Below, piece after piece: positions 1 to 24,458 of a stretch of DNA of 24,458 nt. The stretch's first letter is position 1. Each line of letters begins with the position of its first letter. The translations under genes were made by a program, and so were the position numbers. The stretch is from a virus, in IMG/VR virus record IMGVR_UViG_3300006919_011815, positions 1 to 24,458 of that record, one strand, 5' to 3'. The notes below the pieces were generated by a model. It made no database searches and was not told where the DNA came from. It was given only the letters and a program-made list of their open reading frames with translations.

Positions 1-1200
1 AGAAGAGGAAGGACAACTACCACATATAGTAGCAGAAGATGAAGGACAACTACCACATATAGTAGCAGAAGATGAAGGACAACTACCACATATAGTAGCA
101 GAAGATGAAGGTGATACATCTTCATTAGAAATAACTAATTGTTTTTCAAACTCAAGCTTAACTGCTTTGGTCGTTCCGGCTAATCCAAGATAAACCTCAT
201 CTCCTATTGTAATAGCAGCTGTTGAATACCCAGTACCTCTGTTTTGAATTCCACAATTTTCGAATTCTTTTTCATAGCTCTTCCATTGAATTTCATATGT
301 TTCAGGGTTGATTCTAAAGCAATATGTATCAGCCCAAAACGCACTATAAAGCCATCCATCAGGAGCCAAGTAACCGTGGAAATTTCTATTGACATTTGAA
401 ACTTTGAGATACTCAGCTGGTAAATCTATTTCTTCATATGTATCATCTACACAATTTATAATTAAAATCTTCTTACCTTTACGTGGTAAGCAAAATACTT
501 TGTCTAAAGACTCAACATAGGTAGCACCTACATATTTTACATTAAATCCAGATACTCCTGAAGTAACTCTCGGACCATCTAAATATTTAAACTCACCATT
601 CTTATCTATTTTAGCCACATAATTGTTAAGAGCTGGTGGCATGTAAACTTCACCCTTTTTATCAGCTGCTGCTCCCCATATGTGACCGTGTGATCCTTTC
701 TTTGTGGGTGTAAAAGAATCCACTTCCCCAGTTTTTGTATCATATGTGTATATTTTTAATGTACTTGTATACGATGGCATATAAATAATACCATTAGCAC
801 CTTCTGCTCCTGAACGTACCTGCGGAGTCATATTAAATTTTTTGACAGTAGTTATCTCACCTGTTTTTTTGTTGAGAATACCAATAGAGCTTGAATAGGC
901 CGGCATGTAATAAGTATTACCATCTGATGCTTCAACAGTACCGATAAAACCTTTTAATCCTTCTGCTTGCTTCTCTATTGTACCTGCTGCAATATCAGTT
1001 TTAATATGCATATCAGATTTATAACCTAATGAATGAATAATACCTGCATCATCAACTCCCATAGTACGGGTTTTAGTTAGGTTACCACTTATTTCACCTT
1101 CTAAATATTTAAATTTAGGCCAACTTACATCAGGGTTAGTACTCATACCCTTATTTATATCTCTCAACACTTTAAGCAAGTATCTACTACCCCAAAACAT
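1..1200 (-). CDS. Beta-propeller protein with C-terminal 11-residue Cys repeats (partial, 3' end off window)
   Basis: The reading frame is open for 400 codons and runs off the left edge without a stop. From about residue 60 to 355 it has roughly six repeats of about 40 residues, each with a short strand motif (YYMPAYSSSIGIL, IYMPSYTSTLKIY, VYMPPALNNYVAKI, VFCLPRKGKKILII, LYSAFWADTYCFRI, VYLGLAGTTKAVKL). This is the pattern of a beta-propeller of the PQQ/NHL/WD-like type. From about residue 361 it becomes PSSSATICGSC repeats. The start at 1200 overlaps the end of the DUF1501 gene by 14 bases and has AGGAAAGG nine bases upstream. An in-frame ATG at 1146 (MSTNPDVSW) is a plausible alternative that would drop 18 residues. 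No signal peptide is evident. Being third in the DUF1549-DUF1501 operon suggests a joint function, such as a surface or envelope-binding role. Its function is not known, and a virion adhesin is also possible. Confidence 0.8.
   Translation of the reverse strand, partial: MFWGSRYLLKVLRDINKGMSTNPDVSWPKFKYLEGEISGNLTKTRTMGVDDAGIIHSLGYKSDMHIKTDIAAGTIEKQAEGLKGFIGTVEASDGNTYYMPAYSSSIGILNKKTGEITTVKKFNMTPQVRSGAEGANGIIYMPSYTSTLKIYTYDTKTGEVDSFTPTKKGSHGHIWGAAADKKGEVYMPPALNNYVAKIDKNGEFKYLDGPRVTSGVSGFNVKYVGATYVESLDKVFCLPRKGKKILIINCVDDTYEEIDLPAEYLKVSNVNRNFHGYLAPDGWLYSAFWADTYCFRINPETYEIQWKSYEKEFENCGIQNRGTGYSTAAITIGDEVYLGLAGTTKAVKLEFEKQLVISNEDVSPSSSATICGSCPSSSATICGSCPSSSATICGSCPSSS
11..109 (-). repeat. Three perfect 33-bp tandem repeats encoding CGSC-containing units
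   Basis: Three identical 33-base units occupy 11-43, 44-76 and 77-109. A fourth, diverging unit begins in bases 1-10 and continues off the window. On the minus strand each unit encodes 11 residues (PSSSATICGSC) in frame with the propeller protein. Identity at every base, including third codon positions, points to recent copy-number expansion. The units directly abut with no spacers, so this is a coding tandem repeat. Confidence 0.95.
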
Positions 1201-2386
1201 CTTTAATAACCTTTCCTTTATCAGCTAATTCAAACGGACGTCCTGATGGTGATGAATATTCTTTATTAACATCTAATCCTGCTAAATAAGCAACAGTAGC
1301 ATTAATGTCTGATATAGTCACAGGATCTTTTACAACCTTAGAAGCTGTATCATCAGTCTCCCCATAAGCCATTCCACCTTTAACACCTGCACCAATGAGA
1401 ACTGTTGAGTATGCTTTAGGGTAATGATCACGACCTGTATTAACATTAATATTAGGTGTTCGTCCAAACTCTGTAGCAATAACAATAAGAGTAGAATCAA
1501 GCAACCCTTCACTCTCTAGATCTTCAACAAGTGCACTTACACCATCATCAAGCTCTTTAACTCGATCATCAAGCTTTGTAAAGTTATCTGTATGGGTATC
1601 CCAACCACCAGATGATACTTCAATAAACTTAATATCACCTTTAACCAATCTTTTAGCAAGAAGTAAACCTTGACCTAACCGGGAAGTGCCATAACGCTTT
1701 CTCTTAGCAGATGGCTCTTTACTAATATCAAACAACTCTAAGTCTTTAGATTTAAGAAACCGAACTGTATCATCATAGAACTCGTTATAGGTATCGGCAA
1801 TAGGTGCATTAATCTTTTTGTTAATTACCTTAAGCAAAGCCATTCTTTGTTGAAGCTTATCATCAACCTTTGAGTTCTTAAGACCATCTTTTGGATCTAC
1901 AATAGGTAAGGGTGACTGGCTCTTTGGTAAGAAGCCAGAACCTGGGTGAGTGCTAATACCATTAACTAGTACAAAGTCAGGAATAGCTTTATCTCTATCA
2001 GAAACATGCGATACCCACGAACCTAAAGATGGGTGAGTGATAGTTCCTAACTGCTTGTATGATGTTCTGCTGAGGTATTGAGCTTGCTGATGTGCACCGG
2101 TCTTAGACGTTGTTGAGCGTATTACAACAGCTTTATGCATTACTTCTGCTAATTTAGGAAGTCTATTCCCTATCTGAAAATCCCCTCGAGTAATAATCTT
2201 TTCCGTATCCCCCATTACCTCTTTATCATCTTTTGGATCAAAAGTATCAATATGACTCATACCCCCATCAAGATAGATATAGATAATGTTTTTTGCCTTT
2301 ACGTTATCAGCTACTGGAGCATCTGCATATGCTTTAACTCCGTATGTACTAGCTGCCAATGCTTGTATAAATGTTCTTCTTTCCAT
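1187..2386 (-). CDS. DUF1501 family protein, Tat-exported (alkaline-phosphatase/sulfatase-like fold)
   Basis: The 399-residue protein matches the DUF1501 family from end to end. The N-terminus is a twin-arginine signal (RRTFIQALAAS, then an Ala-rich stretch to about residue 23), so export across the inner membrane in folded form is expected. Family hallmarks are DGGMSHIDTFDPK at 40-52, GGWDTH at 260-265, EFGRTP at 306-311 and GRDHYP at 318-323, followed by GAGVKGGMAYGETD. These Asp/His clusters sit where related metalloenzymes bind metal, but no reaction has been assigned to the family that I can state. It starts one base after the stop of the DUF1549/DUF1553 gene with no Shine-Dalgarno, implying translational coupling. 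It is somewhat shorter than typical bacterial members. The family assignment is firm; the role in a phage is unknown. Confidence 0.93.
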   Translation of the reverse strand: MERRTFIQALAASTYGVKAYADAPVADNVKAKNIIYIYLDGGMSHIDTFDPKDDKEVMGDTEKIITRGDFQIGNRLPKLAEVMHKAVVIRSTTSKTGAHQQAQYLSRTSYKQLGTITHPSLGSWVSHVSDRDKAIPDFVLVNGISTHPGSGFLPKSQSPLPIVDPKDGLKNSKVDDKLQQRMALLKVINKKINAPIADTYNEFYDDTVRFLKSKDLELFDISKEPSAKRKRYGTSRLGQGLLLAKRLVKGDIKFIEVSSGGWDTHTDNFTKLDDRVKELDDGVSALVEDLESEGLLDSTLIVIATEFGRTPNINVNTGRDHYPKAYSTVLIGAGVKGGMAYGETDDTASKVVKDPVTISDINATVAYLAGLDVNKEYSSPSGRPFELADKGKVIKDVLG

Positions 2387-2387
2387 A

Positions 2388-4130
2388 TTAAATAATTAGT
2401 TTGAATTCGTGAGAGTTAATAAGTACCCAAACAATATCAGAGAATCCTACTCCTTTGAATGCTTGTTGTTCTTCTTTAGAAGGTGATCTACCAATATAAG
2501 AACGGAAAACATAATCTACTGCTTCCTTTCTTTTTAGATCTAAAAGTTTCTGACCAAGTCTACTCTCAACTGACATTAACTCTTTGGTCATACCAGAGTT
2601 CATAAGAGTTAGTATCTGCATAATGTTAGCCTCTTGATTACCGTTCTCGATTAGCTCTCTATCGGACCCACCAAACTCTAACATAAAGTTTCGAGCTCTA
2701 CCATCAAAGATATGAGATGATCTAATTGCAAAAACTTTACCAGCTTTAGGTGCTCCCTTATAATACTCTTTCTCTACCTTTTTAAAATCTTTATATATCT
2801 TTAATGCTTGTGTTGAGTTAAGTGTAGCTAGATCTTCTGGAAACATATAACGAAACTTCTCTATTCTATTTTCTGGCTGCCATTTATCTATATCTCCAGT
2901 ATATAGAGTTATAATACTATCCCAAAGCTGAGCAGCAGTCATTCTTCTCATAATAGGTCCTTGGAAATTGTCTTCTGGATCTGTTTCACAACCATAGAAT
3001 TTTGTATTATATAATATAGAATTAAACTTCTTAAGATCATAGTTAACTTCTTTCATTATATCAATTAGATATAATAACAATTTATCATTACGACTCTCAC
3101 GAAGCTCATCATATTCTGCTATATTGTTAAGATTATCAATTAAAGCAAATCCAAATGCTTTATGCCATAGTCTATTAACAATATTAGCAGTAAATGTAGG
3201 ATGCTCTTCACTTATCATCCATTGTGCAAAACTTGGCTGTAATTTATTTCTCTTACGAGTTTCTTTAACTCTATCACCAACTGGTGTAACTGCCTTAACT
3301 ACTTCACCAGGATCACCATCTTTATACTTATAATCATGCGGTAAGGAGAGCACCTTTTTGAGATCACTATCTACTTTATTACGGTATCCTCCTTGTTGCC
3401 AGAATTGACCAATTTCGTTAAGAGCTCCTTTTGTTTCTTTAGCTTTGTCTGTTGCTTCTGCTTCCTTACGAAGTCTTTGATATTCCTTGCGCATGCCCTT
3501 ATCACTCCTAGTATTAACAGTAGTAAAGAAGGCACTCATTTCATAATACTCCATCTGCGACCAATCATCGAAGGGATGGTCGTGGCATTGAGCACATGAG
3601 ACATCCATACCAGCAAATGCTTGAAACGTATTAGATACATTATCAAGTAGCATACCTTCATCTCTTAGAAAGTATCCAACAGCAGGATTAGTATATATTG
3701 TTCCTTGCGCAGTTAAAATATCTTTAACTAATTTGTTATATGGTGTATTCTTTTTAATTTGATCTCTGACCCAGGTAATATATGTTTCACCAGATACATT
3801 CCCATTGAGCTTCTTTTTTAATCTTAAATTATTAGCATAAAAGTTAAACATTGTTTCATTATAACCTTGCGAATTAATAAGATATTTAACTAATTCCGCT
3901 CTATCATTATATTTTTTAAACTCCATACTCTCTTCATATGTTGGTATTCTTCCAACAATATCAAGGAAAGCCCTTCTAACAAAAACATCATCAGATGATT
4001 TCTTAGGCATTGATAGTTTTTTATACTTTAAATCTGCCGAAATGATCTCATCGATCTTTAAACTATGATTTATGTCAGCGGAAAATAAGCTTAGAGTAAA
4101 AGCTAAATATAAGGAAATAAATTTAACCAT
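2388..4130 (-). CDS. DUF1549/DUF1553 (planctomycete-type) secreted protein with CxxCH motif
   Basis: The 580-residue protein begins with a Sec signal peptide (MVKFISLYLAFTLSLFSA). DUF1549 covers about residues 20-210, with FVRRAFLDIVGRIPTYEE and the end motif SCAQCHDHPFDDWSQMEYY; the CAQCH at 179-183 fits the c-type haem attachment pattern. DUF1553 covers about 295-575, with NRLWHKAFGFALIDNLN, RRMTAAQLWDSI and the closing VLINSHEF, typical of the family. A longer frame exists from 4148 (six extra residues). I chose 4130 because the signal peptide begins there and a perfect TATAAATA ends five bases upstream; the longer start would lie upstream of that promoter. It is the first gene of the operon with DUF1501 and the propeller gene. 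Such pairs are common in Planctomycetes and Verrucomicrobia, where the function is also unresolved. Base composition resembles the neighbouring phage genes, so any transfer was not recent. Confidence 0.93.
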   Translation of the reverse strand: MVKFISLYLAFTLSLFSADINHSLKIDEIISADLKYKKLSMPKKSSDDVFVRRAFLDIVGRIPTYEESMEFKKYNDRAELVKYLINSQGYNETMFNFYANNLRLKKKLNGNVSGETYITWVRDQIKKNTPYNKLVKDILTAQGTIYTNPAVGYFLRDEGMLLDNVSNTFQAFAGMDVSCAQCHDHPFDDWSQMEYYEMSAFFTTVNTRSDKGMRKEYQRLRKEAEATDKAKETKGALNEIGQFWQQGGYRNKVDSDLKKVLSLPHDYKYKDGDPGEVVKAVTPVGDRVKETRKRNKLQPSFAQWMISEEHPTFTANIVNRLWHKAFGFALIDNLNNIAEYDELRESRNDKLLLYLIDIMKEVNYDLKKFNSILYNTKFYGCETDPEDNFQGPIMRRMTAAQLWDSIITLYTGDIDKWQPENRIEKFRYMFPEDLATLNSTQALKIYKDFKKVEKEYYKGAPKAGKVFAIRSSHIFDGRARNFMLEFGGSDRELIENGNQEANIMQILTLMNSGMTKELMSVESRLGQKLLDLKRKEAVDYVFRSYIGRSPSKEEQQAFKGVGFSDIVWVLINSHEFKLII

Positions 4131-4135
4131 ATGTA

Positions 4136-4143
4136 TATTTATA
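4136..4143 (-). promoter_or_regulatory. T4-late-like promoter for the DUF1549-DUF1501-propeller operon
   Basis: A perfect TATAAATA on the minus strand lies five bases (TACAT) before the ATG at 4130. It sits just after the stop codon of the lysozyme gene. The exact match to the T4 late consensus ties these accessory genes to phage late control. With T4-like geometry the transcript would begin at or next to the ATG. Confidence 0.65.
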
Positions 4144-4149
4144 CACAAA

Positions 4150-4842
4150 CTATATAATATCCTCTAGTTCGGTAGCATATTTCAATCGCTTTTGGGTATG
4201 TGGGGTACCTGCTTTTTCATACCGTTTTAAGAAAATCCTCGTAGCATCTTCAACATTACTTGTTTGGTTTAACATCCGCTTTACCTTTTTATATTCTGGA
4301 TGCTTTTCCATTTCATATAAAATAAAATCTATTTGCGTATCTAAATCACTCCAATCAGTACCCCGTGTCTTAGCGAATTTAGTTAAATTAATAGGGTCTG
4401 TATCATACCTACCACCCTTTTCCCACTGCGCTAGTCCGCGACCCGGACCTCCACCCAGTTGCTTAACAGCAGGATCCAAATTAGATTCTGCTTTTAAATT
4501 TGCCACTATCCCTATAGCAGCAGTTTTCGTTAACCCTCCATCCGTCAGTCTATTAACAATATATTTTGTAGAGCCTTTTGTTGGGATATCATTAGATACA
4601 GAATCAATCTCAGTAGGAGGGGTTTCAATTTTGAGCTTTTGTAATATTTCTGAGGCAACCTTATCAAACTTAGGAGAAGATATTATTTCATCAGCTTTTT
4701 CAACAGCATCTATTTTTTGTTCTATTGGCTCTGGCCTCTCTTTAAGAGCTTTGAGAATGTAGTCAGTTTCATACGCAGTAGCACCTAAAGACAGCAACCC
4801 CATTAGTATCTCTTTATAACCTTCATCAAACTGCTCTGTCAT
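4150..4842 (-). CDS. Phage tail lysozyme (Phage_lysozyme2-like peptidoglycan hydrolase)
   Basis: This 230-residue protein has a C-terminal lysozyme-like domain at about residues 90-230, with the signature AAIGIVANLKAESNLDP and GGPGRGLAQW. The Glu in KAESNLDP (about residue 119) is the expected catalytic acid by family analogy, and GLAQW is the usual substrate-cleft motif. The N-terminal 90 residues are mostly helical and charged, apart from a short hydrophobic run (ILMGLLSLGATAY), and may anchor it to the tail or baseplate. The likely role is local cell-wall digestion during DNA injection, although an endolysin role at lysis cannot be excluded. Its ATG overlaps the stop of the zinc-ribbon gene by four bases (ATGA), so the two are translationally coupled. 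No holin is visible nearby, which favours a virion-associated role. Confidence 0.85.
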   Translation of the reverse strand: MTEQFDEGYKEILMGLLSLGATAYETDYILKALKERPEPIEQKIDAVEKADEIISSPKFDKVASEILQKLKIETPPTEIDSVSNDIPTKGSTKYIVNRLTDGGLTKTAAIGIVANLKAESNLDPAVKQLGGGPGRGLAQWEKGGRYDTDPINLTKFAKTRGTDWSDLDTQIDFILYEMEKHPEYKKVKRMLNQTSNVEDATRIFLKRYEKAGTPHTQKRLKYATELEDII

Positions 4843-10164: not shown

Positions 10165-13083
10165 ATGCCCGACCAATCTATAAGAACAGTTCTAGTTAAG
10201 TACTCTATCACTAATCCTGATATAACAGATGGTGTATATAGAGATACCGTGGCCCCGTTTTCTTTTCTAGATTTTATCAATAATACACAGGCTGACTATT
10301 CACCTGAGGAGTATAGCTCATTCTATAGTGCCTACCTTCAAAACTGGTATAGCCAACAAGGCACTTCAAAACAAGTACAAGAAACCGAATTCAAAGATTA
10401 TTACAGACAATTTATTAAAGAGATTGTTATTAATTATACTACAGAAACGGAGAAACGTTTTTTAGAAAAGATCGATTTCAACGACCCTACCGATTTAGAT
10501 GTAGCTATACCTTTTTTTGCAAACCGGCTCAAAGATATCGCGCTGTTCTATAAAAAGAAACGGGATGAAGGTAAATATGTAATTGATAGAAATAAGATCA
10601 AAGGTAGTACTACTGGTTTAGAGAAAGCAATTTTTGATAACATTTACAATTTTGTTTTTAACACAGAAGACTCTCTCGACACGCAAAATGAATCTGTATT
10701 AGCCGCTGTTAAAAATTTAGGTATAGAGATTGAAGAATTTATTGATGTATATGGTGATTATTTTGATCTTACAGATACAGATAATAGTAATAATATTAAC
10801 GAAGTTGAGGCCAAATATTACTTAGATCCATCAGGTATAAATGCCATTTCTACCGGTGATAACTTTTTAACTAATTTACGTACTTTTAAAATTAATCCAC
10901 CTACTCTAACTCCAGATGAGTTTGATGCTATTTGTAACCCTGATAACGCGTTAGTTCAAATATACAATGAATATAAAACTGGTGGGTTATCGATTGCTCA
11001 GTTTTATTCTTTAAAAAGATCGTTAATATCTAAATATATTGGTACCGATATATACTATATTGATACTACTACAACACCTGCAACATCAGGACTTATGGTA
11101 AGGGCAGATAATCCTGCTACTAATTCTCTTAATTTGCAAGGAGTTGATACTGCAACAGTGGAGAGTAATCAAACAAAGCTTTTGAGAGACGTTGGTCTTA
11201 ATTTTAAAGAAGATGATATTGGACTTTTTAAACTGCAAGCAGAAACTTTTTTATATAATATAGATACTACTTCGTTGGAAAACGGGAATGTATATATTTT
11301 CCCCGATCCAGCACAATATGGTAATGTTTCAACTAACCCACAGCCAGTATACCCAATATATTACAAATTCGATTATAGATTCAATACAAGAAACGTATCG
11401 AGTGGATTAGCAGCTGGGGATCCTAAAATTACAAATAAAGCTACCACCTTTGAATCATATACCACGAGAGAGCGTAATGATACTCAATTAAAAGATCGTA
11501 ACGATCTTAGCTATAAACTAAATTTTACCGACTTATATAATCAGGGGATAATTAGCAAATATCAAACAGATATTTACGGCAATGAATATGCTTTGTTTAA
11601 AAGTGAACCTTTAAAACCCATAGATACCAACGCATCAACCCAGGTAAAAAATTTACTATTAAACGGTCATGTGTTTTTTGATACAGACAGTGGTTATAAT
11701 TTTAATTATTCATTAACTGAAGTTTCTGGCACTACTGTTAAATCTGGACTTAGTACATATACAAACGGTCTTACTGCTTTAAATAATCCGTTTACTTTAT
11801 ATATGAGGGAATTTTACCCTTATCAAGAACTTATCCAGGATACTAGAAATATTAAACCTTTTTGGCGGGATGGTGGTGCCTTTACCTTTTTGGACGGGTC
11901 TGAGCTTCCTAATCCTTTAACTGGGTTGGGTCCAGGTTATCCTGCATCTACTAATTACTATTATACAGTTCTCGCTGAAGGTACATTCCCAACACCTGTT
12001 GATCTACAAACTAATCAAACTCCGCTATCAGATATTACTACGGAGGCTGCTTTTAATATTATTACGGAAACTTCTGAACTTACTTTTGATGTAGATATAA
12101 GATACTATCTTTCAGCCGGTGGGCAGTACAAACGATATGAAGGAGGGTTTTTTACAGACGATATTACATTACCTAATGACTTTATATACTCAGATAATTA
12201 CCGTTATATAGATAGTACCGATTCTAGAGGTTCTACTGTTGTATCTAATCTTAGTTCATCAAATAGTTCACTTACAAAAGAAGAACAAAAAACCTTAGAG
12301 GGTAAGTTGTATGTAAAAAATGGATCTTATTCAACATCGGAACTATTATCATCTGCTCTAGCTAAAACAATTACAAAATACTCAACTGCAGTTCAAAATC
12401 AAATTAATCAGAATCTTATAGATTTTGATATTATTCAAAATACTATTTTCCTCGAAACTAACTCTAGTCTTATTGTCGATAAAATAAGTTACAAAAATGG
12501 TAAATTTACTCAACCTGCCACTAACAACACCCTATACTCTGTTAATAGTAGCAATATGGTAGAAGTCTTTACAAATAGATTTTATGTTGAAGATACAAAT
12601 ATGATTTATTTTGCGCGTTTCCAGGATGATATAAATGATACATGTGGCCCGGTAGCAGATAACTATAAGGCAGTTTACCCGGAAATTTACGAATACAATA
12701 TTCAACAAAATACATCAAAAAAGATATATCCAGAAGGGGTTACAGATGCATCACTAAGTGCTTTTGAACTAAATATACCATCTATATCAAATAGAAATTA
12801 TACTCCTGATTCAGTACACACCCCAACAATAGCATATAATAGTTTGAATGATTTGTTTAAGTTAACGTATATTGTAAATGATAAAAATGATTTTTCACAT
12901 ATAGTTGATGTATCTTTTAAAATGTCAGATAATAAACTTTCCGTTATAGATTCAAATAGATATGAATCATTAAATAATATTACAAGAACATCAACATTTG
13001 GAGATACAACTAACTTTAACTCTGTTTCCGCTAGCAACGGTTCCTTTACAAGAGATTCTACAAACTTCACCTTTAATGTATAA
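10165..13083 (+). CDS. Large uncharacterised virion-type protein
   Basis: This 972-residue protein starts six bases after the preceding stop and has neither the octamer nor a good Shine-Dalgarno, so it is probably read from the upstream message. The N-terminal 210 residues are helical and charged, including FANRLKDIALFYKKKRDEGK and GSTTGLEKAIFDNIYNF, a pattern I associate with baseplate-attached structural proteins. An EF-hand-like Asp/Asn run (DLTDTDNSNNINEVE, about 199-213) could bind calcium. The rest is strand-rich, low in Cys and rich in Tyr, Asn and Thr, as in tail-surface proteins. There is no signal peptide or membrane segment. Its stop overlaps the next gene's ATG. Function is unassigned; a structural role is inferred from size, composition and operon position. 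Confidence 0.7.
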   Translation: MPDQSIRTVLVKYSITNPDITDGVYRDTVAPFSFLDFINNTQADYSPEEYSSFYSAYLQNWYSQQGTSKQVQETEFKDYYRQFIKEIVINYTTETEKRFLEKIDFNDPTDLDVAIPFFANRLKDIALFYKKKRDEGKYVIDRNKIKGSTTGLEKAIFDNIYNFVFNTEDSLDTQNESVLAAVKNLGIEIEEFIDVYGDYFDLTDTDNSNNINEVEAKYYLDPSGINAISTGDNFLTNLRTFKINPPTLTPDEFDAICNPDNALVQIYNEYKTGGLSIAQFYSLKRSLISKYIGTDIYYIDTTTTPATSGLMVRADNPATNSLNLQGVDTATVESNQTKLLRDVGLNFKEDDIGLFKLQAETFLYNIDTTSLENGNVYIFPDPAQYGNVSTNPQPVYPIYYKFDYRFNTRNVSSGLAAGDPKITNKATTFESYTTRERNDTQLKDRNDLSYKLNFTDLYNQGIISKYQTDIYGNEYALFKSEPLKPIDTNASTQVKNLLLNGHVFFDTDSGYNFNYSLTEVSGTTVKSGLSTYTNGLTALNNPFTLYMREFYPYQELIQDTRNIKPFWRDGGAFTFLDGSELPNPLTGLGPGYPASTNYYYTVLAEGTFPTPVDLQTNQTPLSDITTEAAFNIITETSELTFDVDIRYYLSAGGQYKRYEGGFFTDDITLPNDFIYSDNYRYIDSTDSRGSTVVSNLSSSNSSLTKEEQKTLEGKLYVKNGSYSTSELLSSALAKTITKYSTAVQNQINQNLIDFDIIQNTIFLETNSSLIVDKISYKNGKFTQPATNNTLYSVNSSNMVEVFTNRFYVEDTNMIYFARFQDDINDTCGPVADNYKAVYPEIYEYNIQQNTSKKIYPEGVTDASLSAFELNIPSISNRNYTPDSVHTPTIAYNSLNDLFKLTYIVNDKNDFSHIVDVSFKMSDNKLSVIDSNRYESLNNITRTSTFGDTTNFNSVSASNGSFTRDSTNFTFNV

Positions 13084-22183: not shown

Positions 22184-24199
22184 ATGGATTATCCTACAGA
22201 CCTTCCACTCTCAGCTGTTGCAGTACAGATATTCGAGGAAGGCATGTCACCTCAATATGATATTACTTGGTCATTTACATATGAACTAAGCAATTACACG
22301 TCTGGTGATGAAATAGGATATTGCATGTTTTTACAAGATGCTAGCTTTCCATTAAGTGGTGGTGGCGTCGGGCCTGATCTTGGATTTTCAGGAAATACCC
22401 TTCTTAGTGCAGCTTTATCTTCACAACCTTTAAATAAACCTGTTTTAGGTATTGGATTTGATAGTCTGGGAGTTTTTGCATCAGAACTCATATATACAGA
22501 CGGGGTTACTCGTACTGGTAGAAGTTATGAACCTAATAGTATTACAATAAGAGATAAAAATCTCGACATAATTACAACTCATGCTATTAGTGCTTTTGAT
22601 TTAATTAGTTCCGGTAAAAAAACTGTACGTGCTCGGCTTGGTAACTACGGTCGTAAGGTTGTTGTTGATTACAAAGCAGAGTCTGATACATTTTATAAAC
22701 ATTTACTTACCCAGGAACTTTCTGGTATTGACGTGTATTCTAATACGCGGTACCGTCCAGGTGTATCTTTTGTAAAGCCTCTTACAAGTTCGAATACAAA
22801 CGGCACGATCGTTACTACAGGCTTTCATGTTGAAGGTAATCAAACAGAAACGGAAGAAGACACATTTACATTCACACCATTAACAGCATTTGCTATTGAG
22901 AATGCGACGTCCGGACCAGTACCTCAAGAACCACCGATTTCTGAAGATAGACCTAAATTACCATTTTTAGGAATGGAGCCGAATCTTGGATGTCCGGATA
23001 ATACATGTGATTTACCAACTCTCGGTACTAGTTACACGGGTGTATTTGAAACCTCTATATTATATGGAATGTCTGCTTTTATTGGAGATATCGATCTAAA
23101 ATGGAGCACTCCTTTATACCCATACCGGTTTGTTTATACATATGACGATATTATTCGGTTAGATACAGGCTTTGTAGGTAATGAAACCTGGAATTACGGT
23201 GGTGCTTTAAGAAGTCGGTTTACCTCAGAACTACAAGATTCTTTAAAATACGCAAATTACCCACCAATTAATCTTGCACCAGATGGGTATCCTTATGTGG
23301 TTAGTACTTTAACCACCGGTACAAGCTCTATCTACAAAGATACAGATACATCACGTCTCAAAGCTACTGTATACTCACCCCTTTCCACTACTGACTGGGA
23401 AGTATTTGTTGGATGCCCGTTTTATACACTATCATGTGGAATAACTGATCAATATTTATGTGATGTTTCTCGTAGATTTGAACAACTTCGACGCGTTGTA
23501 CTTAGCCCTATTAACCCGTTCCCTGAATGCTCCATAGCTGTGACTCCTAGTGTATCACCTACCCCCTCCATTACTCCGTCTATAACAACTACACCGTTTG
23601 CTACACCTACACCTACACCTTCTGTCACACCTTCAGTAACAATTACCCCGTCTATTTCAATCACACCTAGTGTTACTCCGTCTGTTACTCCATCAGTTTC
23701 AGTTACACCGTCTGTTACTCCATCAGTTTCAGTTACACCATCTATTACTCCTAGTGTAACCCCATCATTAACTCCATCAGCTTCTCTTAATCCATCACCA
23801 CCGGCAGCTTCAGTTACACCATCTGTTACTCCTAGTGTTACGCCATCAATTTCTACTAGTGTTACTCCGTCTATTACTCCTACATCAAGTGTTACACCGA
23901 GTGTAACTCCAAGTGTAACTCCATCATTAACTCCACCAGCTTCTCCTGATCCATCACCACCGGTTGCAGCTTCAGTTACACCATCTATTACTACTAGTGT
24001 TACGCCATCTGTTACTCCTAGTGTTACACCATCAATTTCTACTAGTGTTACTCCGTCTGTTACTCCATCGATCTCTGTAACACCTTCTACAACCCCGTCT
24101 TCATCACCGGCAGCTCCATCACCGTCAGCTACACCATCAATAACACCATCAACTACTCCTGCTCCATCTCCACCAGCTCCAACTCCGACCCCATCGTAA
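22184..24199 (+). CDS. Lectin-like protein with long Ser/Thr-Val-Thr-Pro C-terminal stalk
   Basis: The protein has 671 residues. About 20-230 resemble an L-type lectin/concanavalin-like domain: YDITWSFTYELSNYTSGDEIGYCMFLQDAS, a Gly-rich GGGVGPDLGFSG, then VLGIGFDSLGVFAS, the order of 'G-aFvl...GyG' and 'v.geFDt' strands in that fold. A second domain (about 260-445) has Cys pairs (GCPDNTCD; CPFYTLSCG; YLCDVS; PECS) that could form disulfides outside the cell. From about residue 447 to the end it is almost entirely (S/T)-(V/I)-T-P with Pro/Ala/Ser interruptions, a likely extended polyproline-type stalk or glycosylation-prone segment. An outer-capsid or tail-surface glycan-binding adhesin is the best guess. 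The start follows a late-promoter-like octamer by five bases. Confidence 0.78.
   Translation: MDYPTDLPLSAVAVQIFEEGMSPQYDITWSFTYELSNYTSGDEIGYCMFLQDASFPLSGGGVGPDLGFSGNTLLSAALSSQPLNKPVLGIGFDSLGVFASELIYTDGVTRTGRSYEPNSITIRDKNLDIITTHAISAFDLISSGKKTVRARLGNYGRKVVVDYKAESDTFYKHLLTQELSGIDVYSNTRYRPGVSFVKPLTSSNTNGTIVTTGFHVEGNQTETEEDTFTFTPLTAFAIENATSGPVPQEPPISEDRPKLPFLGMEPNLGCPDNTCDLPTLGTSYTGVFETSILYGMSAFIGDIDLKWSTPLYPYRFVYTYDDIIRLDTGFVGNETWNYGGALRSRFTSELQDSLKYANYPPINLAPDGYPYVVSTLTTGTSSIYKDTDTSRLKATVYSPLSTTDWEVFVGCPFYTLSCGITDQYLCDVSRRFEQLRRVVLSPINPFPECSIAVTPSVSPTPSITPSITTTPFATPTPTPSVTPSVTITPSISITPSVTPSVTPSVSVTPSVTPSVSVTPSITPSVTPSLTPSASLNPSPPAASVTPSVTPSVTPSISTSVTPSITPTSSVTPSVTPSVTPSLTPPASPDPSPPVAASVTPSITTSVTPSVTPSVTPSISTSVTPSVTPSISVTPSTTPSSSPAAPSPSATPSITPSTTPAPSPPAPTPTPS
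23530..24196 (+). repeat. Ser/Thr-Val-Thr-Pro coding repeat region with internal duplications
   Basis: The region encodes many variants of [12 protein letters not shown]. At the DNA level there are nested repeats. A 30-base unit (starting TCTGTTACTCCATCAGTTTC) is found twice in tandem at 23681-23740. A larger block at 23762-23880 recurs imperfectly at 23921-24066, with in-frame insertions of 3 and 24 bases. All changes keep the reading frame, pointing to recombination or slippage within a coding array. Confidence 0.9.
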
Positions 24200-24222
24200 C
24201 AATCGCTACACTCTAGTGAGAT

Positions 24223-24458
24223 ATGTCTGTAACTCCGACTCCAACGCTGACTGTAACGCCGTCGAAAACTCCTTCTGGTAGTTCATCTTCCCCTTCACCT
24301 TGCCCCAGTAGTACTCCAAGTAAGACTCCATCAGTAACTCCTTCGATTACACCAACAATCTCTGTTACACCTTCTGTTACTCCATCAGTAACTCCTTCGA
24401 TTACACCAACAATCTCTGTTACACCTTCTGTTACTCCATCAGTAACTCCTTCGATTAC
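24223..24458 (+). CDS. Second Ser/Thr-Val-Thr-Pro repeat protein (partial, 3' end off window)
   Basis: An ATG at 24223 opens a frame that stays open to the window end (78 codons plus two bases). It begins [20 protein letters not shown], has a Cys-containing linker ([14 protein letters not shown]) and then enters [18 protein letters not shown] repeats. It lies 23 bases after the stop of the preceding stalk protein. GTGAG upstream is a weak ribosome site, and no octamer is seen, so it is probably co-transcribed. Only the repeat start is visible. It may be a repeat-only linker protein or the N-terminal stalk of a longer protein. An alternative is that the two genes were once one and a stop arose between them, but the new ATG and the non-repeat intergenic bases argue for separate genes. 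Confidence 0.7.
24331..24458 (+). repeat. 54-bp tandem repeats encoding [18 protein letters not shown]
   Basis: Units start at 24331, 24385 and 24439. The first two are identical over 54 bases and the third matches over its 20 visible bases. Each encodes 18 residues in frame with the partial gene from 24223. The array continues off the window. Confidence 0.93.

Follow-up and report, generated by a model that had tools for sequence, protein, structure and literature searches.

The window analyzed here, the complete 24,458-nucleotide (nt) stretch of IMG/VR virus record IMGVR_UViG_3300006919_011815, carries two adjacent genes whose products have conserved signals for export from the cytoplasm: a PSCyt2/PSD1 (DUF1549/DUF1553) protein with a CxxCH motif, and a DUF1501 protein. 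On the minus strand lie the genes for a 176-residue protein, a Phage_lysozyme2 protein, the PSCyt2/PSD1 protein, the DUF1501 protein and a repeat protein; the plus strand encodes gp25, a gp6-like wedge protein, a PKD protein and tail or fibre proteins. The features of the pair are as follows.

2388-4130, minus strand: PSCyt2 (DUF1549) and PSD1 (DUF1553) protein, 580 residues from ATG 4130 (Pfam; conserved start; AlphaFold2)
1187-2386, minus strand: DUF1501 protein, 399 residues, with a modelled alkaline phosphatase superfamily fold (Pfam; AlphaFold2)
4077-4130, minus strand: Sec-type signal peptide, residues 1-18 of the PSCyt2/PSD1 protein, MVKFISLYLAFTLSLFSA then D at the putative cleavage site
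2324-2386, minus strand: twin-arginine signal, residues 1-21 of the DUF1501 protein, RRTFIQ at residues 3-8, MERRTFIQALAASTYGVKAYA then D at the putative cleavage site; RR conserved
3582-3596, minus strand: CAQCH, residues 179-183 of the PSCyt2/PSD1 protein, followed by D-H-P-F-D-D-W
4136-4143, minus strand: T4-type late promoter element TATAAATA, 5 nt before ATG 4130

Pfam assigns PSCyt2 at 132.1 bits (E = 3.5e-38; gathering score 29.8), PSD1 at 80.7 bits (E = 1.4e-22; gathering score 28.5) and DUF1501 at 332.8 bits (E = 4.2e-99; gathering score 27). The mechanical open reading frame (ORF) of the DUF1549 gene starts at TTG 4148; the conserved start is ATG 4130.

The gene pair is conserved among related viral contigs

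Querying IMG/VR with the two proteins individually and with alignments returned 25 other contigs, three of which end inside DUF1549. In all 22 that reach both genes, DUF1549 and DUF1501 are adjacent and in the same order, and the pair remains together as the surrounding gene content varies by phage lineage. Identity to the window's proteins ranges from 61 to 95% for DUF1501 and from 51 to 95% for DUF1549 (62% for the partial copy of L129). Among close copies (dS about 0.5 to 1.2), the ratio of nonsynonymous to synonymous substitution rates (dN/dS) runs from 0.038 to 0.058 in DUF1501 and from 0.031 to 0.052 in DUF1549; one further pair, L005-L105, gives 0.031 and 0.065. The comparison genes gave 0.060-0.084 (lysozyme) and 0.047-0.092 (gp25 and gp6, with one gp6 comparison close to saturation). 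These ratios, at or below those of the lysozyme and baseplate genes, indicate strong purifying selection on the pair; both genes have been kept working. Among 50,697 phage records, the DUF1549 protein had no match and DUF1501 a single weak partial one (MT837425; 31.8% identity over 35% of the query). Excerpts of one report place DUF1501 in a phage context through a weak match of a 61-residue protein (PMC5418858).

Both proteins carry predicted export signals

Signals were called Sec-like or Tat-like (twin-arginine) with a crude rule-based test, using 322 other viral ORFs of at least 100 residues as controls. All 21 viral DUF1549 copies were Sec-like, against 61 of the 322 controls, and 21 of 22 viral DUF1501 copies were Tat-like, against none of the controls. 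The single miss, taken to be a second DUF1501 in contig L010, has its RR some residues deeper in. As in Tat substrates, the RR of the window's DUF1501 protein lies near the start and precedes a weakly hydrophobic stretch; RRx[FLVIM] occurs in 21 of 21 non-redundant viral copies and in 65 of 69 bacterial ones. Export of both proteins, by two different routes, is thus a well-supported prediction from sequence conservation. The initial annotation had read a Sec-type signal on the PSCyt2/PSD1 protein and the twin-arginine RRTFIQ on DUF1501, and expected both proteins to leave the cytoplasm; its readings hold across the family, as no viral copy covering the signals or the CxxCH has lost them. Its further suggestion, that the proteins work outside the cytoplasm and not in the virion, fared less evenly: we found no sign of a virion part, but the signals are not phage-specific and belong to the bacterial PSCyt2-DUF1501 operon described below.

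Tail or capsid decorations that retain such signals would account for the fact that, in the window and in close relatives of it, the pair neighbours baseplate genes. However, the pair lies on the opposite strand, divergent from the baseplate genes, neither protein has a significant PHROG match, and the neighbours differ among phage lineages while the pair stays. The export signals are also conserved, and the relatives are cellular proteins carrying the same signals. We consider a role in the virion very improbable.

A T4-type late promoter element lies at a fixed site

The T4 late promoter element spans exactly -13 to -6. Counted from the DUF1549 ATG, TATAAATA or CATAAATA occupies exactly -13 to -6, both in the window and at 19 of the 21 viral loci tested; the two loci without it are L118, which carries DNA polymerase III genes, and L012. 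Excerpts of published work identify TATAAATA as the T4 late promoter element (PMC2984593, PMC3014915) and place the element at the -10 position (PMC7892883). Both marks of a T4-type late unit are found in this group: NATAAATA upstream of the pair, and a homologue of the late sigma factor gp55 in the 171-kb relative G001 (43% identity, E = 1e-16). G001 is the only one of 14 related records, mostly fragments, to encode gp55, which the window itself lacks; Gp23 is present in seven of the 14 and an S77 prohead protease in six. The element at 4136-4143 agrees with the view of the initial annotation that the two proteins are late.

The spacing between element and start codon recurs across gene families. 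Across 25 stretches of these phages, including the window, NATAAATA occurs at 305 sites and is followed within 40 nt by an ATG-started ORF 166 times. A 5-nt spacing is the commonest in 26 of 49 gene families, some of which are single ORFs and perhaps not genes, and any other spacing in at most three families. Four of five control octamers peak at 4 to 7 families; the fifth, which peaks at 20 families (4 nt), overlaps the NATAAATA motif at an offset of one base. Cyanophage P-SSM2, sampled over 41 kb, has eight such sites within 60 nt of a start, at spacings of 15 to 51 nt and none at 5 nt. Since the element lies just 5 nt before the ATG, leaderless late mRNAs are predicted for this phage group; no report of leaderless late mRNAs of this kind was found in the literature searched.

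The CxxCH motif is a family feature of the PSCyt2/PSD1 protein

Of 24 viral DUF1549 copies, 22 have CAQCHDHPFD[DE] and the remaining two are fragments that end short of the site, so that all 22 copies covering it retain the motif. Bacterial relatives were collected by scanning GTDB species genomes with the DUF1549 protein, taking the best 80 of at least 589 stretches. Residues C179, C182, H183 and H185 are invariant in all 68 aligned DUF1549 sequences, a figure biased in its bacterial part because those rows were seeded by CAQCHDH or NP[EA]VGYFL. Because of this seeding, six genomes were searched with the PSCyt2 profile as an unseeded control and the 30 best-scoring loci fetched; CxxCHxH was present in 30 of 30 of these proteins. 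The CAQCH reported earlier at residues 179-183, whose coordinates we confirmed from ATG 4130, is conserved in the phages and belongs to a CxxCHxH signature shared with the bacteria.

Covalent attachment of haem c at this motif is possible but unproven; M160, present in 63 of 68 rows, is a candidate axial haem ligand. The AlphaFold2 model, built from the 68-sequence alignment, has a mean predicted local distance difference test score (pLDDT) of 89.0; the score drops to 73 across residues 181-190, where the most conserved motif of this otherwise confidently modelled protein lies. A cofactor missing from the model would explain this dip, which is no demonstration of haem. CxxCH with D-H-P after it is a signature of the family, and no description of a cofactor for it was found in the literature searched.

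The model has no clear match in the PDB, whether to a known cytochrome c fold or to another, and PDB sequence searches with the pair proteins gave nothing useful. Phycobilisome linker domains, its best structural matches, were rejected at only Z 5.5, with a root-mean-square deviation (rmsd) of 4.0 over 109 aligned residues. In many rows these alignments cover both chain ends of the model. The two ends of the protein also resemble each other (hhalign probability 94.7, E = 6e-8), a relatedness that we treat as a lead and not as a claim. A glycosyltransferase near the pair in contig L012 (6360-8249, plus strand) has a weak DUF4214 match below cut-off, which may be compared with the phycobilisome linker matches.

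DUF1501 is modelled as an alkaline phosphatase superfamily domain

The AlphaFold2 model of DUF1501, from a 79-sequence alignment, has a mean pLDDT of 89.5. Its best PDB match is ENPP6 (5ege_A; Z 20.6, rmsd 3.0, 244 aligned residues), followed by PafA (Z 20.4) and sulfatases (Z about 18-19), with rmsd values of 3.0-4.4 for NPP, PafA and sulfatases; 495 of 1000 PDB chains scored Z of at least 8. On the model, DUF1501 is a full alkaline-phosphatase-superfamily (NPP/sulfatase) domain. Invariant or nearly so among the 79 sequences are H99, D263, H265, E306, R309 and H321, with E306 and R309 forming the ends of E306-F-G-R309.

Such a fold, whose relatives include sulfatases and NPPs, would also suit an enzyme for superinfection exclusion or receptor removal: an exported hydrolase could change a surface glycan, preventing the capture of released virions and the adsorption of secondary phages. 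The late element and the export signals fit this idea, as does the presence of glycosyltransferase-like genes close to the pair in contigs L122 and L012. Nothing points to it specifically, and we regard it as unlikely.

Peptidoglycan hydrolase genes lie near the pair

The genes that flank the pair in the window are the following.

4150-4842, minus strand: phage tail lysozyme domain protein (Phage_lysozyme2; Pfam 7.7e-33), directly upstream of the DUF1549 gene
1-1146, minus strand: repeat protein, propeller-like by eye, running off the window edge, with its own late element at 1152-1159 (minus strand)

At 19 of 22 loci, the pair has an amidase or lysozyme gene, encoding a peptidoglycan hydrolase, no more than 5 kb away. 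Two of the exceptions are L118 and L012; the third, L128, breaks off next to the pair. The hydrolase genes are often accompanied by a small one-helix gene, putatively holin-like, whose PHROG has no function. The repeat protein, the downstream neighbour of DUF1501, matches no Pfam family above cut-off and is at most a candidate member of the transcription unit. Tandem repeats encoding PSVTPSIT-type and CPSSSATICGS-type tails occupy both ends of the window (23585-24458 and 1-111).

The pair has bacterial relatives

Among the matches listed from the GTDB species genomes, the best bacterial DUF1549 relatives are mostly from Verrucomicrobiota, Planctomycetota and Lentisphaerota; they are 26-37% identical to the window's protein in the multiple alignment. 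DUF1501 adjoins the DUF1549 match in most of the best 80 bacterial loci. The same genes, in the same order and with the same RR motif and CxxCHxH, thus occur in Planctomycetota and Verrucomicrobiota, which argues that the pair is not a phage invention and that the phages have retained the CxxCH and the signals as part of the family's inheritance. A second CxxCH, in a PSCyt1-type segment, is found in 28 of 30 unseeded bacterial copies; the phage protein is without this segment. A maximum-likelihood tree built from 79 DUF1501 proteins unites all 18 viral rows (support 100/100), with a stem of 0.79 changes per column, placing the viral copies in a single old clade. Contig L010 carries a second DUF1501 gene directly after the pair (11203-12624, plus strand; 27% identical). 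It groups with a Verrucomicrobiales copy, both on long branches, and on this evidence is a separate acquisition.

The bacterial context raises the possibility that the pair are auxiliary metabolic genes, whose exported products release phosphate, sulfate or sugar bound in extracellular polymers, or pass electrons via haem on the CxxCH protein. Relatives are multi-copy in bacteria of the Planctomycetes-Verrucomicrobia-Chlamydiae (PVC) group, with 13-65 PSCyt2 profile matches in five of six genomes and two in the sixth, and a sulfatase-like protein adjoins the pair in 16 of 80 bacterial loci (the family named by eye, with no baseline). EF-hand proteins, considered as regular neighbours of the bacterial pairs, adjoin just two of 80 and were rejected as such. 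Contig L124 also encodes a type B succinate dehydrogenase iron-sulfur subunit. A precedent is phage soxC with soxD, a cytochrome c protein (excerpts of PMC8190135): there too, a phage encodes an enzyme with a cytochrome-motif partner, and the process is drawn in the host periplasm, but the families are different, the sox pathway is known and SoxD has CxxCHG. The late promoter and lysis-gene surroundings, by contrast, are a poor fit for boosting replication metabolism, and we hold this explanation to be doubtful, though a serious possibility.

Other exported proteins and a possible host

The L124 gene (16974-17723, minus strand) encodes a phage-borne type B succinate dehydrogenase/fumarate reductase iron-sulfur subunit (SdhB-like). 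Its best match is 72%, among 194 genomes from the phylum of the Opitutia seed (Verrucomicrobiota), followed by 69% in 149 genomes from the phylum of the Rubripirellula seed (Planctomycetota) and 67% in 149 genomes from the phylum of the Acidobacteria seed. Matches on plasmids reach 60-64% in Bacteroidota and actinobacterial plasmids and 27% in Paracoccus; none was found in the 50,697 phage records. A small exported EF-hand protein with a lysine-rich tail forms a six-locus cluster (L108, 14461-14820, and L104, 3244-3618, both minus strand, and four further loci). Small exported proteins resembling outer-membrane barrels are encoded in L006 (11676-12149, minus strand; a weak OMP_b-brl match below cut-off) and L015 (15060-15767, minus strand; no Pfam match), and a signal-bearing protein in L104 (7336-8166, minus strand) has a PEP-CTERM-like tail (14.7 bits, below the 20.7 cut-off).

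These SdhB-like, EF-hand, barrel-like and PEP-CTERM-like proteins fit a PVC host but are no proof of one. The ribonucleotide reductase is nearest to those of alphaproteobacterial phages (about 60% to Rhodobacter and Ruegeria phages); the SdhB-like protein speaks against the alphaproteobacterial host this would suggest, and neither is decisive. The major capsid protein is at best about 33% identical to cyanophage proteins, a match too low to assign a host. It is conceivable, if rather doubtful, that T4-type phages infecting Verrucomicrobiota or their relatives run their own late export programme from leaderless mRNAs, in which the domesticated pair (Sec and Tat), the EF-hand protein, small outer-membrane barrels and one PEP-CTERM-like protein rebuild the host surface before lysis.

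Discussion

We tentatively favor, at somewhat less than an even chance, a reading in which the pair supplies a late exported hydrolase (DUF1501) and a CxxCH partner that act in the host envelope near lysis. An uncultured T4-type phage lineage would have acquired a PSCyt2/PSD1-DUF1501 operon from a bacterium, probably of Planctomycetota or Verrucomicrobiota type, without the N-terminal PSCyt1-type part common in bacterial copies, and the operon would have come to lie behind a phage late promoter, whose element is present in the sequence and suggests the time of expression. Late transcription would yield the pair along with the lysis genes. Judging from the conserved signals, the DUF1549/DUF1553 protein would leave unfolded via Sec late in infection and DUF1501 folded, with its metals, via Tat, and the two would come together either in the periplasm or on the surface of the cell. 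Its fold suggests that DUF1501 may be a metal-dependent hydrolase of phospho- or sulfo-ester type, with the CxxCH protein as its partner. The target, at a guess, might be a glycan or lipid of the envelope or surface, attacked beside the phage peptidoglycan hydrolases to ease lysis and release.

Several observations weigh against this reading. The export calls come from conservation and a crude rule. The active site of DUF1501 is atypical: of the putative two-metal site, D263, H265, E306 and H321 are conserved, but D40, which we take to be the position of the first metal-ligand Asp in NPPs (mapped by motif onto NPP residues), is Asp in just 21 of 79 rows, there is no invariant Ser/Thr nucleophile, and by the same mapping the NPP second-metal ligands and nucleophile are not clearly kept, so catalysis is not assured. 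The DUF1549/DUF1553 model has no clear structural match, Foldseek returning none below E 0.001 in the PDB or BFVD. In L118 and L012 the pair has neither late element nor adjoining lysis genes, so lysis is not its only context. Finally, the literature searched yielded no function for DUF1501, DUF1549 or DUF1553, nor did it give an activity or a substrate for any member of the DUF1501 and DUF1549 families.

The closest known systems are the PSCyt2-PSD1/DUF1501 operons of Planctomycetota and Verrucomicrobiota (PF07583, PF07587, PF07394), which share with the phage pair the genes, their order, the RR motif, the CxxCHxH and Pfam scores well above cut-off. The phage copies differ in having no PSCyt1-type CxxCH segment, at most 37% DUF1549 identity and a phage late promoter. 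A DUF1800-DUF1501 pair beside chitin synthase genes, in excerpts of PMC5122149, likewise joins a twin-arginine DUF1501 and a partner in one operon, but the partner is DUF1800; homology of DUF1800 to DUF1549/DUF1553 was rejected, the profile comparison not being significant (probability 3.7). With T4 late genes, as excerpted from PMC2984593, PMC7892883 and PMC3014915, the group shares the promoter element and, in related contigs, gp55, Gp23 and S77 protease homologues; here, by contrast, the element is close enough to the ATG to predict leaderless mRNA. Newly observed here for the phage pair are the late promoter at a fixed site, the nearby peptidoglycan hydrolases and the alkaline-phosphatase/NPP/sulfatase fold modelled for DUF1501.

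If true, leaderless late mRNAs would be an unusual translation start for the late genes of T4-type phages. PSCyt2 genes number dozens per genome in several PVC bacteria. The phage version, minimal, usually single-copy and under strong selection, is the smallest form that is still of use to some organism, and expression of the two genes, or phage genetics, would offer an easier way to their function than a bacterium with tens of copies.

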